In this document: piece by piece, positions 38,477 to 47,031 of the stretch
Numbering within the stretch: the stretch's first letter is position 1
How the letters are laid out: each line of letters starts with the position of its first letter
DNA from: Aliihoeflea sp. 40Bstr573
Lineage (GTDB): Bacteria; Pseudomonadota; Alphaproteobacteria; Rhizobiales; Rhizobiaceae
DNA: 64,000 bases
Assembly: GCF_024105655.1 (NCBI RefSeq)
Contig: NZ_JAAAMH010000004.1
Span: 62,001-126,000, forward strand
Direction: 5' to 3'
Translations under genes and position numbers: made by a program
Notes under the pieces: model-generated
Database searches by the model: none
The model's input: the letters and a program-made list of their open reading frames with translations, nothing else
Told to the model about the DNA's origin: nothing

Positions 38477-38704
38477 CCATCTGCCTTTCGAAATGACTGA
38501 GATCATCTTTGGCCCGTCCGGGCGCGCGGACGCGAGAGCGTCTGCCTGCCCGACACTGTCGCACACGCTTCTTACCCGCACGTTATCTCGTGCTGGTTGT
38601 CCGATCATGATGACCGAATTGTGATCCGCTGCCCAACCCTGGAACCGCAGGGCTTTCACGCCGTTGTTACCGCGAAGGTGACACCCCCCGCGGAGAACAC
38701 GAAA

Positions 38705-42161: not shown

Positions 42162-42563
42162 TCACCCCTTCGGCGCCGGGCCGACCACTGCCCAACTGTG
42201 CCCGAACGGATCGTCGAACTGACCGTAGAGATCACCCCAGAAGGCGACTTCGAGCGGCATCTTCACCGTGCAGCCCGCCGCGATCGCCCGGTCCCAGACC
42301 GCGCGCGCATCGTCGACGATGATGTTCAGCGTGGTGCCCTGCGGCTCGACCCAGGGATAGCCGTATTCCGGCATCGCGTCGGCGATCATCAGCGTGCCGC
42401 CATTTATTTTCAGTTCGCAATGCATGATGCGCTTGCCGTCTTCCATCAGCATGCGCTCGCCCTGTTCCTGCGCGCCGAGCGCGCGCTTGTAGAAGTCGAT
42501 GGCGGCCACCGCGTCCTTCGACATCAGATGCGGCGTCACGCCGGGATAGGTGTAGTCCGACAT
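42162..42563 (-). CDS. VOC family protein (PhnB-like glyoxalase fold)
   Basis: 133 residues. The PhnB-like pattern is GVTPHLMSKDAVAAIDFYKR, MHCELKINGGTLMIADAM and GDLYGQFDDPFGHSWAVVGP. These small proteins of the vicinal-oxygen-chelate fold often have unknown substrates. Start MSDYTYPGVTPHL was chosen. It lies 16 bases after the DUF1428 gene and is probably co-transcribed from the ECF42-type promoter upstream of that gene. VOC, DUF1428, SRPBCC and DGPF genes commonly group with ECF42 sigma factors. Confidence 0.86.
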   Translation of the reverse strand: MSDYTYPGVTPHLMSKDAVAAIDFYKRALGAQEQGERMLMEDGKRIMHCELKINGGTLMIADAMPEYGYPWVEPQGTTLNIIVDDARAVWDRAIAAGCTVKMPLEVAFWGDLYGQFDDPFGHSWAVVGPAPKG

Positions 42564-42579
42564 CGATCGATCCTCCGGC

Positions 42580-42933
42580 TCAGCGTTCGATGAACGCGTC
42601 GAACCCGCCATAGATCATGCGCTTGCCGTCGAACTGCATGTTCTCCATGGCCGGCTTCATCCGCGGGTCCTCGAAGACCTTCTTCATCACCTCGTCGCGC
42701 TTGGTCTTGTCGGGATAGGTCGCCCAGGCAAATACAACGATCTCGTCTTCCTTGGCCTGCACCGCACGCGGAAACGAGGTGAGTTCGCCATAGGGCACGT
42801 CGTCGGCCAGGCACTCGACATAGCCGGTGGCCCCGTGTTCCAGCCAGACATCGGCCGACACACGGGCGTGCTCCTTATAGGTCTCGAGATTGGACTTCGG
42901 AACGGAAAGCAGGAAACCGTCGACATAGCTCAT
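42580..42933 (-). CDS. DUF1428 family protein
   Basis: 117 residues, dimeric alpha-beta barrel (ferredoxin-like) family. The opening MSYVDGFLLSVPKSNLETYK and WLEHGATGYVECLADDVPYG and EKMKPAMENMQFDGKRMIYG-like ending (RMKPAMENMQFDGKRMIYGG) are characteristic. Biochemical role unknown. First gene of a two-gene unit with the VOC gene, preceded by GAGGAGC as RBS and by a promoter-like TGTCGG-N17-CGTC. Confidence 0.9.
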   Translation of the reverse strand: MSYVDGFLLSVPKSNLETYKEHARVSADVWLEHGATGYVECLADDVPYGELTSFPRAVQAKEDEIVVFAWATYPDKTKRDEVMKKVFEDPRMKPAMENMQFDGKRMIYGGFDAFIER

Positions 42934-42968
42934 GATATTGCTCCTCTTTCATCATGTTGCGACAGGAT

Positions 42969-42995
42969 GACGAACGGCCGAGCGCGCTCCCGACA
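42969..42995 (-). promoter_or_regulatory. ECF42-type promoter of DUF1428-VOC operon
   Basis: On the minus strand TGTCGG (42995-42990), 17 bases, CGTC (42972-42969), 36 bases before the start codon. Same signature and spacing as upstream of the SRPBCC and YciI/sigma genes. Confidence 0.72.
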
Positions 42996-43087
42996 TGCGC
43001 TTTCGAATTAATCGGCCATTCGAGCGCCCTGGCCAGCCGGAACCGGAAGCGCGCGGAACGATTGTACGGCGGCGATCGGAGGAAGGA

Positions 43088-44701
43088 ATGCGTGCGAGCG
43101 GAAAATTGCTGGTCCTTGGCGCCGCCCTCCTCACGGCCGCCGCCATGCGCCGCGCGTTCACCTTGCCGCAGCGCGCCTTGCCCGCGCCCGGGCCCGCCCC
43201 CGACGTGAGTGGAACGACGCTTGCGCGCATGACGCGGCCGGCGGTCGACGCACATCCCGGCCTCTCCGGCGTCTACCTTCTGGCGGACGGCCCCGAAGCA
43301 TTTGCGACCCGCATGTCGCTTGCCCGCCAGGCCGAAAAGACGCTCGACCTTCAATATTACATCTGGCGCGGGGATCGCACGGGAACGATGCTTCTCGAGG
43401 AGGTGCTCGACGCCGCCGATCGCGGCGTTCGTGTCCGGCTTCTCCTCGACGACAACGGCATCGACGGGCTCGACCAGGTGCTTTTCGCGCTCGACCGGCA
43501 TCCGCGGGTCGAGGTGCGCCTGTTCAATCCATTCCCCGTCCGTTGGCCGAAAGTGCTCGGATATGTCTTCGACTTCCCGCGTTTGAACCGGCGCATGCAC
43601 AACAAGAGCTTCACCGTCGACGGACAGGCGACGGTGATTGGGGGGCGCAATATCGGCGACGAATATTTCGGCGTCGCCGACGGCCCGCTCTTCGCCGATC
43701 TCGACGTGCTCGCCCTCGGCCCGGTCGTGGACGAGGTGGCGACGCAGTTCGAAACCTATTGGAACGCCGCCTCCTCCTTCCCGGCCCGCCTGCTCCTGCG
43801 CCGTGTCGGTCCCCGCAGCCTGCGCCGTTTGCGCAAGCGCAGCTCGATCGTCGAGCGCGATCCGGCCGCGCGGCGCTATTTGAAGGCGGTCCGCGACCTC
43901 GAGATCGTGCACCAGCTTGCCGAGGCGCGGCTGCCGATGGAATGGGCGAAGGTGTCGCTCCTGCATGACGATCCCGGCAAGGCGCTCGGCTATCTGAAGA
44001 AAGACGCGGGCAGCGACGCGCGGCTCTCCGGCCTGCTGGAAAACGCGATCGGCACGCCAAAGCGCGAGCTCGCCATCATCGCTGGCTATTTCGTGCCCGG
44101 CAGTCGCGGTGTCGCCAATCTTCAGGCGCTGCGCGCCCGCGGCGTCGAGGTCTCCATCCTGACCAACGCGTATGAGGCGACCGATGTCGGCGCGGTTCAT
44201 GCCGGCTACGCGCCCTATCGGCGGCAATTGCTGCGCGCCGGCATCCGCCTGTTCGAGATGTGCGACGGGGCGCGGCAGGCGCCGTCGCGTCGCGAGCGGC
44301 GCAAGGGTTCGCGGCTGGGCGTCTCAGGTCGCCTGCGCGGGTCCGGCAGCGGCTCGGCCTCGGCGCTGCGCGCCGGCGCTTCGACGCTTCACGCCAAGAC
44401 CTTCGTCGTCGACCGCGAGCGCCTCTTCGTCGGCTCGTTCAACTTCGACCCGCGCTCGATCGATCTGAACACCGAGATGGGCATCGTCATCGAATCGCCG
44501 CTACTGGCCGGCCTCGTCGCCGACGCCTTCGACGACGTGGTGCCGGACAACGCCTATGAGGTGGCCTTGTCCGAACATTGCGGGCTCGTCTGGAAGCGCC
44601 CCGACCTTCCCGCACCCTTGCGGCGCGAGCCGGGTATGGGGCTTGGGGGTCGGCTGGCGATCGGCATCCTGAAGCGCCTCGACATCGAGTGGCTGCTGTA
44701 G
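43088..44701 (+). CDS. Phospholipase D/cardiolipin synthase-like protein
   Basis: 537 residues with two HKD motifs: HNKSFTVDGQATVIGGRN (H171, K173, D178) and LHAKTFVVDRERLFVGSFN in the C-terminal half, each followed by the usual G-G/S-x-N. An N-terminal hydrophobic segment (LLVLGAALLTAAAM) probably anchors it to the membrane. LQYYIWRGDRTG is typical of the ClsC/YmdC-like subgroup of cardiolipin synthases. Start follows GGAAGGA. An arginine/serine-rich insertion (APSRRERRKGSRLG) lies before the second HKD. Divergent from the DUF1428 operon, with no ECF42-type promoter of its own. Confidence 0.88.
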   Translation: MRASGKLLVLGAALLTAAAMRRAFTLPQRALPAPGPAPDVSGTTLARMTRPAVDAHPGLSGVYLLADGPEAFATRMSLARQAEKTLDLQYYIWRGDRTGTMLLEEVLDAADRGVRVRLLLDDNGIDGLDQVLFALDRHPRVEVRLFNPFPVRWPKVLGYVFDFPRLNRRMHNKSFTVDGQATVIGGRNIGDEYFGVADGPLFADLDVLALGPVVDEVATQFETYWNAASSFPARLLLRRVGPRSLRRLRKRSSIVERDPAARRYLKAVRDLEIVHQLAEARLPMEWAKVSLLHDDPGKALGYLKKDAGSDARLSGLLENAIGTPKRELAIIAGYFVPGSRGVANLQALRARGVEVSILTNAYEATDVGAVHAGYAPYRRQLLRAGIRLFEMCDGARQAPSRRERRKGSRLGVSGRLRGSGSGSASALRAGASTLHAKTFVVDRERLFVGSFNFDPRSIDLNTEMGIVIESPLLAGLVADAFDDVVPDNAYEVALSEHCGLVWKRPDLPAPLRREPGMGLGGRLAIGILKRLDIEWLL

Positions 44702-44793
44702 CCAAGGTGTGTCGCGATCGGGCATGCCGAAATCGGCGGATTTCGAGAACCGGCGCAGAATGCCGCCATTTGCAGGCCGCGCAACCCTGAATA

Positions 44794-45279
44794 TCAGGAC
44801 AGCTGGAGCGTCTTCGCCAGGGCCTCGAGCTGGTCCGCACAAATGCCCCAGCCTTCGTGGAAACCCATCTTCTCGTGGTTCTGCTTGTCCTCTTCCCGCC
44901 AATGGCGCGCGCGCGCCGTGTAGCGCGTGCGACCATCCTCGTCGGCGAAGGTGATGATGCCGGTAAAGAACGGCTTTTGCGAGGGCACCCAGCCTTCCGT
45001 ATAGGCGTCGGTGAAGACGATCTTCTCGTTCTTCACGATCTCCAGATAGACACCCTCATTGGGATACTCGTTGCCGTCCGGGTCGCGCATGACGATGAAG
45101 GACCGCCCGCCGGGGCGCGGGTCGACCTCGGCCTTGGCGATCGTCCACGGCGCCGGCACGAACCATTTCGGCAGCAGTTCGGCATCGGTCCAGCAGCGGA
45201 AGAGCTTGTCGCGCGGTGCATCGAGAAGTCGGGTGAGAACGAGTTCGTGCTCCGTCTCTGCCTTGGGTTCCGGGGTCAT
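44794..45279 (-). CDS. SRPBCC family protein (AHSA1-like)
   Basis: 161 residues of the START/Bet v1-like fold. The AHSA1 pattern is LVLTRLLDAPRDKLFRCWTD, LLPKWFVPAPWTIAKAEVDP and RPGGRSFIVMRDPDG, ending HEGWGICADQLEALAKTL. Ligand unknown; in E. coli-like relatives no enzyme activity is known. Preceded by GGAGAT as RBS and by TGTCGG-N17-CGTT, so it belongs to the presumed ECF42 regulon. Separate from the sigma operon, which lies 81 bases upstream on the same strand. Confidence 0.9.
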   Translation of the reverse strand: MTPEPKAETEHELVLTRLLDAPRDKLFRCWTDAELLPKWFVPAPWTIAKAEVDPRPGGRSFIVMRDPDGNEYPNEGVYLEIVKNEKIVFTDAYTEGWVPSQKPFFTGIITFADEDGRTRYTARARHWREEDKQNHEKMGFHEGWGICADQLEALAKTLQLS

Positions 45280-45309
45280 CGTGATCTCCTTTGTCAGGTC
45301 TGATCCAAG

Positions 45310-45336
45310 AACGATCCGCAGGCGCGCGAACCGACA
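45310..45336 (-). promoter_or_regulatory. ECF42-type promoter of SRPBCC gene
   Basis: TGTCGG (45336-45331), 17 bases, CGTT (45313-45310) on the minus strand, 31 bases before the SRPBCC start. Confidence 0.65.
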
Positions 45337-45360
45337 TCGGGCACGCGAAAACGAGCGGGT

Positions 45361-46599
45361 CTATGCCTGCATCCGGTCGAGATGGCGGCGGATATGGGCG
45401 GCTTCGGCCGGATTGCGTGCCAGCGCGATGGCGCGGTCGAACGCCTCGCGTGCCTCGCGGCAGCGTTCGAGTTCGAGGAGCAGTCCGCCGCGAAGGGCAT
45501 GATAGTTGAAATAGCCCGAGAGCCGGTCGCCGAGCGGCTCGATCAGGTCGAGTGCGGCCTGCGGCCCTTGCACCTTGGCAAGCGCGACGGCGCGGTTGAG
45601 CGTGACGACCGGCGAGGGTTCCACGTGCTCCAGCATCCGGTAGAGCAGTTCGATCTCCGTCCAGTCGGTCTCGTCGGCGGTTTTCGCCCGGGCATGGAGC
45701 GCGGCGATGGCGGCCTGGATCTGGTAGCTGCCCGGCTGGCGGTGACGGAACGCCTTGTCGACCAGCGCCAGCCCCTCGCCGATCATCTTGGCGTTCCAGC
45801 GCGCGCGGTCCTGGTCGTCGAGAAGGATGATCTCTCCCTCAGCATCGATCCGCGCGGCGGAACGCGAATGCTGCAGCAGCATCAGCGCGAGAAGAGCCAT
45901 GATCTCCGGCTCGGTCGGGAAGATGCGCAGGAGCAGCCGGCCGAGACGGATCGCCTCCTCGCACAGGACCGGCGCAGCCTCGCTTGCGCCCGGGCGGGAC
46001 GAATAGCCCTCGTTGAAGACGAGATAGATCATCGCGGCGACCGCGCCGGCGCGTTCCGACCGCGCGATGGCGTCCGGCGCCTCGAACTGGCGGCCGGATG
46101 CGGCGATCTTCGCCTTGGCGCGGGTGATGCGCTGCTCCATCGCCGCTTCCGACACGAGGAAGGCGCGCGCGATCTGCGGCACGGTCAGGCCGGAGACGAT
46201 ACGCAGCGCGAGCGCCACCTGATGCTCGGCCGGCAGCGCCGGGTCAGAGCACACGAAGAGCAGGCGCAGGATGTCGTCGCGATAGTCGGCGCCGTCCAGC
46301 CGCTCGGCGAGCGGCGTCTCGACATCGTCGAGGTCCGACAGTACCGGCTCGTCCGGCAGCGCCACGAGGCGCTTCTCGCGGCGCACCGCGTCGATGCCGA
46401 CATTGCGCCCGACGAAGATCAGCCACGCGGCCGGATCGCGCGGGGCGCCATTCCTCGGCCAGTTCTTCAGCGCCTTCAGGCACGCCTCCTGAAACGCTTC
46501 TTCCGCCCGGTCGAGATCGCGGAAATACCGCAAGAGCGCGCCGACCGTCTGCGGACGGGCGGCGGATAGCAGCGTTTCGAGGGCGCGCGCGTCGGTCAT
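45361..46599 (-). CDS. ECF42-type RNA polymerase sigma factor with C-terminal extension
   Basis: 412 residues. Region 2: LLRYFRDLDRAEEAFQEACL and AAWLIFVGRNVGIDAVRRE. Region 4: LPAEHQVALALRIVSGLTVP followed by AFLVSEAAMEQRITRAKAKI. From about residue 190 comes a helical extension (DUF6596/TPR-like) of some 220 residues, ending EAFDRAIALARNPAEAAHIR. ECF42 members lack anti-sigma genes and are encoded next to DGPF/YciI proteins; the extension is thought to control activity. Here the YciI gene precedes and overlaps it (ATGA). Confidence 0.93.
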   Translation of the reverse strand: MTDARALETLLSAARPQTVGALLRYFRDLDRAEEAFQEACLKALKNWPRNGAPRDPAAWLIFVGRNVGIDAVRREKRLVALPDEPVLSDLDDVETPLAERLDGADYRDDILRLLFVCSDPALPAEHQVALALRIVSGLTVPQIARAFLVSEAAMEQRITRAKAKIAASGRQFEAPDAIARSERAGAVAAMIYLVFNEGYSSRPGASEAAPVLCEEAIRLGRLLLRIFPTEPEIMALLALMLLQHSRSAARIDAEGEIILLDDQDRARWNAKMIGEGLALVDKAFRHRQPGSYQIQAAIAALHARAKTADETDWTEIELLYRMLEHVEPSPVVTLNRAVALAKVQGPQAALDLIEPLGDRLSGYFNYHALRGGLLLELERCREAREAFDRAIALARNPAEAAHIRRHLDRMQA

Positions 46600-46979
46600 G
46601 AAGCGTGCTTTTCCCTGTCGCGGTCACGCACGTAGCCGACCGGACGGATTTCATAGGAGCCGCCGCCGGGATTGGCTTCGGCCAGATCCTTCGAAAAGGC
46701 CAGCGCCTGGTCGAGACTGTCGAAATCGACGAGGTAGAATCCGAGGAACTGTTCTTTCGTCTCGGCGAACGGGCCGTCGATGACGAGCGGTTCGCCGCTC
46801 GCCTTGCGCAGGGTCGTCGCAGCCGAAGTCGGCAGGAGGCGTGCGACCGGGCCGAGCTGGCCGGCACGTTCGACCGGCTGCAGCACGGCGTCGAGACGCG
46901 CCATGACGGCGTCGTCCTCCTCCTTGGTCCATTGGCCGACCGTGTCTTCGTTGTTGTAGCAAAGAATGGCGTAGAGCAT
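46596..46979 (-). CDS. YciI-like DGPF-domain protein, partner of ECF42 sigma factor
   Basis: 127 residues. The opening MLYAILCYNNEDTVGQWTKE and the diagnostic DGPFAETKEQFLGFYLVDFD mark the YCII-related DGPF family; the C-terminus GGGSYEIRPVGYV is also typical. The fold is ferredoxin-like; activity unknown. Its stop overlaps the start of the sigma gene, so the pair is translationally coupled and transcribed from a TGTCGG-N17-CGTC promoter. Upstream in-frame sequence belongs to the antisense of rpsP. Confidence 0.92.
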   Translation of the reverse strand: MLYAILCYNNEDTVGQWTKEEDDAVMARLDAVLQPVERAGQLGPVARLLPTSAATTLRKASGEPLVIDGPFAETKEQFLGFYLVDFDSLDQALAFSKDLAEANPGGGSYEIRPVGYVRDRDREKHAS

Positions 46980-47004
46980 GTCTGCCTCGCGAGCTTGATG
47001 GAAC

Positions 47005-47031
47005 GACGAACGAACACAGCCGTAGCCGACA
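47005..47031 (-). promoter_or_regulatory. ECF42-type promoter of yciI-sigma operon
   Basis: TGTCGG (47031-47026), 17 bases, CGTC (47008-47005) on the minus strand, 25 bases before the YciI start. It implies autoregulation of the sigma factor. Confidence 0.72.

Follow-up and report, generated by a model that had tools for sequence, protein, structure and literature searches.

The 64,000-nucleotide stretch of Aliihoeflea sp. 40Bstr573 analyzed here (NCBI RefSeq assembly GCF_024105655.1, contig NZ_JAAAMH010000004.1, positions 62,001 to 126,000 of the forward strand; hereafter the window) encodes an ECF42-type sigma factor at 45361-46599 on the minus strand, translationally coupled to a gene for a YciI/DGPF-type protein at 46596-46979(-). 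Based on comparison of this locus with related genomes, we are highly confident that this factor directs RNA polymerase to promoters of the form TGTCGG-N17-CGTYNT. Probably six units would be read from such promoters: the yciI-sigma pair itself, an SRPBCC gene and a DUF1428-VOC operon in the window, and, on other contigs, two VOC genes (one of them of the PhnB type) and a beta-propeller/MoaD-like operon. An ABC exporter may be read as well, with this target seen within the genus only. In the mechanism we propose, a membrane anti-sigma factor would not be involved. Instead, the C-terminal extension of the sigma factor, which resembles tetratricopeptide repeats (TPR), would gate its activity on small-molecule stress, possibly together with the YciI partner. 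The target products would bind, modify or export a class of stress compound, the output being detoxification, sequestration or export.

The 412-residue sigma protein matches the Pfam families Sigma70_r2 (6.1e-11), Sigma70_r4_2 (6.5e-8) and DUF6596 (PF20239; 5.1e-34), the last being the single match to that family in the whole genome. In the AlphaFold2 model (mean pLDDT 81.1), helix repeats continue up to residue 411, and pLDDT is mostly above 90 in the C-terminal helices from about residue 230. The top Foldseek matches to the model are TPR proteins, at E 1.5e-3 and weaker (none at E <= 0.001), with extracytoplasmic function (ECF) sigma factors ranking below them. The model points to a C-terminal extension with TPR-like repeats, some 200 residues long, as is characteristic of ECF42 factors. 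Other hallmarks of the group are also present, namely sigma2 and sigma4 domains, an adjoining YCII/DGPF gene and ECF42-type target promoters. The preliminary description had named the genes and proposed the coupling; Pfam agrees with its gene identities, and the end of yciI, a match to Pfam YCII, overlaps the start of the sigma gene as ATGA. For comparison we used 80 related ECF42 loci (1.02 Mb), in which the best segment matches the sigma protein at 64-93% identity. A YCII homologue is present at all 80, and the 4-base overlap of yciI and sigma gene at 66. Pfam gave no anti-sigma factor among the sigma neighbors (yciI, SRPBCC, phospholipase-D-like, DUF1428 and VOC genes), although anti-sigma models were not searched specifically. 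The genome has two YCII matches, one being the yciI beside the sigma gene. The other (L123:1187-1483, G000 C44) adjoins a TypA/BipA gene, and no sigma-factor gene was found among the open reading frames (ORFs) called in that 4.5-kb stretch.

All three local units are preceded by an exact match to TGTCGG-N17-CGTY, the strict motif, as the preliminary description had reported. The matches lie at 47005-47031(-), 45310-45336(-) and 42969-42995(-), with -10 cores CGTC, CGTT and CGTC, and end 25, 30 and 35 bases before the ATG codons of yciI (46979), the SRPBCC gene (45279) and the DUF1428 gene (42933), respectively. With two further bases included, the putative promoters are TGTCGG-N17-CGTCGT for yciI-sigma (47003-47031(-)), TGTCGG-N17-CGTTCT for SRPBCC (45308-45336(-)) and TGTCGG-N17-CGTCAT for DUF1428-VOC (42967-42995(-)). 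The SRPBCC gene (Pfam AHSA1) spans 44794-45279(-). The DUF1428 gene (42580-42933(-)) is the first of a two-gene unit; the second, a VOC/glyoxalase-fold gene (Pfam Glyoxalase), spans 42162-42563(-), where the ATG at 42563 is the preferred start of an open frame that reaches 42611. The genome's only DUF6596, DUF1428 and AHSA1 matches are all found in this cluster. The window holds five matches to the strict motif versus 0.51 expected, and none of 100 shuffles gave five. Of the remaining two, 62925(+) lies within a predicted gene and 38529-38555(-) lies 22 nucleotides (nt) upstream of a possible start of a transglycosylase SLT-domain gene. The latter was considered as a fourth local promoter and rejected: a G replaces the T of the extended -10 element, and the match is not kept in G148, the one congeneric genome that could be compared (the G060 stretch gave no alignment there). 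On these two grounds we take it as a chance match.

Could the three promoter motifs themselves be chance matches in G+C-rich DNA that precede starts? The 38529(-) match shows that an unconserved motif can stand before a possible start, and a scan of the whole genome, one of the checks proposed in the preliminary description, gave 39 strict matches versus 18 for the reversed pattern, most of them within predicted genes. However, another of these checks, a comparison with related ECF42 loci, yields the N17 pattern 154 times in the 80 loci, versus 2-28 times (mean 13.6) at 14 other spacings from 10 to 24. Upstream of yciI the strict motif is kept in 74 of the 80 loci, 19-29 nt from the ATG. In the others the spacing is unchanged and the -35 element reads GGTCGG (L041, L049, L059) or CGTCGG (L092), the sequence is masked at the gene start (L079), or yciI stands in line behind genes with their own motif (L068). 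For nearly all sites (150/154), a gene homologous to one of the 11 proteins used as queries begins within 160 nt downstream. The four window families account for 146, and four further sites precede PhnB, SnoaL or a second SRPBCC type, queries that were added only after the sites had been seen. A site upstream of an SRPBCC homologue occurs in 45 of the 80 loci. Moreover, the second base after CGTY, a position outside the search pattern, is T at 148 of the 154 sites and at all three window promoters. All 72 sites that bear the motif in the second VOC, DUF1428, PhnB, propeller and ABC sets described below have the same T (68 TGTCGG, 4 TGTCGA), against 7 of the 32 remaining strict sites of the Aliihoeflea genome. 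Given this conservation across genera, we regard chance as a practically negligible explanation. Our working consensus is TGTCGG-N17-CGTYNT, in which the -10 extension is new here and which is sharp enough for the regulon to be read from sequence.

ECF42 promoters are associated with the consensus TGTCGA / CG(A/T)C, and most sites here have TGTCGG. TGTCGA replaces TGTCGG before VOC and PhnB targets at four loci (L210, L212, L285, L289) of one genus (G103, G175), which hints at a shifted -35 preference there.

The genome scan also suggests that the regulon reaches other contigs. The assembly is a draft of 69 contigs, and gene starts, which were predicted with a home-made codon model whose training set was the window, are approximate. 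With these starts, 7 of the 39 strict sites are intergenic by prediction and have a gene start within 60 nt on the downstream side: those of the three window units and four distal ones, all on contigs other than that of the sigma gene. Two of the distal candidates are VOC genes, one of the PhnB type 35 nt from its motif and a second at 32 nt. At 46 nt from its motif stands a BNR beta-propeller gene, which a MoaD-like gene overlaps on the downstream side, and at 53 nt an ABC ATPase gene (L027, G000 C44:255319), with a gene for an ABC-2 permease behind it. The preliminary description had proposed a local regulon. Its three window units stand, but the regulon is probably not only local: three of the distal units carry the promoter with support from other genera, and the fourth within the genus. 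The ABC unit had been chosen as a negative control; its motif, with the T, is present in all three congeneric genomes, so that it is better regarded as a genus-level candidate than as a clean control. A further site 53 nt before a phosphoesterase-like gene, named by eye (L118:8076), overlaps the predicted start of the divergent gene; it lacks the T and is not counted among the candidates. Near a contig edge, an intergenic strict motif with the T extension (L005, G000 C4:332-358) has no callable downstream gene.

The core of this system is already in print for a relative. RpoE10 of Sinorhizobium meliloti was classed as ECF42 by Lang et al. 2018 (PMC6180224), according to whom its overexpression raised six genes, with SMc01149-48 and SMb20475-74 raised at least 2-fold. 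The promoters assigned to RpoE10 in that account, before SMc01149-48, SMb20475-74 and SMc01151-rpoE10, are all TGTCGG-N17-CGTC and are said to match motifs predicted for ECF42. As in Aliihoeflea, the sigma gene is paired with a YCII gene, and the passages on RpoE10 in PMC6180224 identify no anti-sigma factor. They describe SMc01149 as a hydrophobic-ligand domain protein, SMc01148 as glyoxalase-like and SMb20475, on another replicon, as also glyoxalase-like; SMb20474 is said to have no predicted function. On pSymB, the ORF that the SMb20475 promoter precedes is a PhnB-type VOC gene of the same Pfam family as our distal PhnB gene, its identity with SMb20475 being deduced from an unannotated record. 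Unlike in the RpoE10 regulon as described there, DUF1428-VOC is local here, and the propeller-MoaD operon and the second VOC gene carry the promoter. The terms DUF1428, MoaD, sialidase, propeller and 'ABC transporter' have no occurrence in the main text of PMC6180224. ECF42 factors of Streptomyces venezuelae, Pseudomonas putida (ECF-10) and Xanthomonas are reviewed in PMC8999054 and PMC8103513. In the descriptions given there they share with the present protein a TPR-rich C-terminal extension of about 200 residues and a conserved YCII-domain neighbor; activity is reported to require the extension, and a partner role is suspected for YCII proteins. The ECF42 assignment, the shared promoter type and the small ligand-binding targets put forward in the preliminary description are all supported by comparison with relatives. 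With the core known, the extension of the regulon is modestly novel.

Across genomes of the family, the motif tracks the sigma gene, a pattern that is new here. ECF42-type factors are common in the family, the DUF6596 cut-off being passed by 108 of 199 genomes (ECF42+ below, the others ECF42-; G119, with a marginal PF20239 match, was counted among the latter). The strict motif was found before the second VOC gene in 14/33 ECF42+ versus 0/25 ECF42- cases, before DUF1428 in 25/55 versus 0/27, before PhnB in 17/27 versus 0/23, before the BNR propeller gene in 9/36 (nine sites in five genera) versus 0/14, and before the ABC unit in 3/26 versus 0/4, the other 23 ECF42+ genomes in the last comparison lacking it. 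We searched 150 nt upstream for the second VOC and DUF1428 genes and 200 nt for the other sets. The second VOC sample consists of the 58 strongest matches, from which one gene interrupted by an internal stop and every weak match were excluded; in two ECF42+ cases (L127, L128) the motif lies just past the 150-nt stretch and was scored as lacking. For DUF1428, 82 of the more than 150 matches listed were used, mostly one copy a genome, and for the propeller gene 50 of 54. The PhnB sample combines the 30 best matches with 20 picked for coming from genomes without ECF42; its ECF42- members are more distant homologues, which biases this contrast.

These counts bear on the alternative that another ECF sigma factor reads the motif and that the ECF42 gene is itself merely a target. 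The genome may encode other ECF factors, and SMc01151, the YCII gene of the S. meliloti pair, was not induced by RpoE10 in the experiments of PMC6180224. Both leave some room for such a factor. On the other hand, the motif is absent before all 52 second VOC and DUF1428 genes examined from ECF42- genomes, and SMc01149-48 and SMb20475-74, which rose on RpoE10 overexpression in that account, bear the motif. We consider it very improbable that a different factor is responsible.

Several points nevertheless weigh against direct reading of these promoters by the ECF42 factor: (i) The Fisher p-values for the contrasts above (9.8e-5 for the second VOC gene, 5.4e-6 for DUF1428, 1.5e-6 for PhnB and 0.047 for the propeller gene) ignore phylogeny, and hence shared ancestry. 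(ii) ECF42 status was assigned by PF20239 match above cut-off as the sole marker. (iii) The strict motif is missing in many ECF42+ cases (19/33 for the second VOC gene, 30/55 for DUF1428, 10/27 for PhnB and 27/36 for the propeller gene), which suggests that regulon membership varies. (iv) In S. meliloti, overexpressed RpoE10 reportedly left SMc01151 unchanged, and the motif overlaps the mapped start of this gene (PMC6180224), so that autoregulation is unproven. The preliminary description had held the factor to be probably autoregulated. Its sequence basis stands, as the conserved motif before yciI implies autoregulation, but the S. meliloti result does not bear it out; conversely, the conserved yciI promoter puts that negative result in question.

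In Aliihoeflea the two overlapping genes of the propeller-MoaD unit (L118:2249-3602, G000 C68) lie behind an ECF42-type promoter. The small protein matches ThiS (PF02597), with a SAMP1 match below cut-off, and has a Gly-Gly C-terminus; in 28 of 30 family loci, a small ORF with an ISGG end stands behind the propeller gene. A MoaD homologue lies at most 1.5 kb from the propeller gene in 28/30 family loci and in 11/14 loci outside the family. Among six plasmid records with a propeller homologue, four were examined; the three annotated ones have no YCII, ECF sigma or MoaD neighbor in a gene table that is incomplete. In our judgment it is fairly likely that, here and in several related genera, the ECF42 factor controls this operon. 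Such control would wire a stress sigma factor to a module that acts as ubiquitin-like modifier or sulfur carrier, in which the C-terminal Gly-Gly is conserved and the SAMP1 similarity weak; genes for small ligand-binding proteins and, within the genus, for an ABC exporter would be under the same factor. In the open-licence PMC literature we found no paper joining sigma factor, MoaD and BNR repeat, or YCII and MoaD, nor one joining DUF1428, VOC and sigma factor.

It might still be argued that only the three local units are real and that the distal VOC, propeller-MoaD and ABC sites are accidental. The propeller motif is present in only a quarter of the ECF42+ genomes sampled and in 0/14 genomes outside the family (where ECF42 status was untested and two loci have a short upstream stretch), and the ABC motif is confined to three congeneric genomes. 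However, motif-bearing sites of all distal sets have the T extension, and the SMb20475 ORF belongs to the Pfam family of the distal PhnB gene. In addition, the Ancylobacter locus L068 (3695-7242) carries on one strand an ECF42 motif followed by VOC, propeller, MoaD, yciI and sigma genes, and at L301 the propeller gene follows about 0.4 kb behind the end of a sigma homologue (44% identity). A purely local regulon is therefore unlikely, if less so than a different sigma factor, and we favor one that extends to the distal units.

The signal and purpose of ECF42 factors are left unsettled in the accounts of PMC6180224, PMC8999054 and PMC8103513. The target themes gathered here (VOC, SRPBCC, DUF1428, SnoaL, propeller with ubiquitin-like protein, and exporter) point to the handling of small toxic molecules.

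A divergent phospholipase-D/cardiolipin-synthase-like gene, identified by Pfam, lies between the SRPBCC and DUF1428 genes at 43088-44701(+); coding score and ribosome-binding site favored the start at 43088. It was rejected as a sigma target, consistent with its earlier description as a possible bystander: a search for TGTCGN-N16-18-CG(A/T)(C/T) on its strand at 42934-43087 gave no match, and a homologue occurs in just 3 of the 80 related loci. In a looser scan near this gene the sole match, TGACGA-N17-CGAC at 42968, fell on the strand opposite to that of the DUF1428 promoter.

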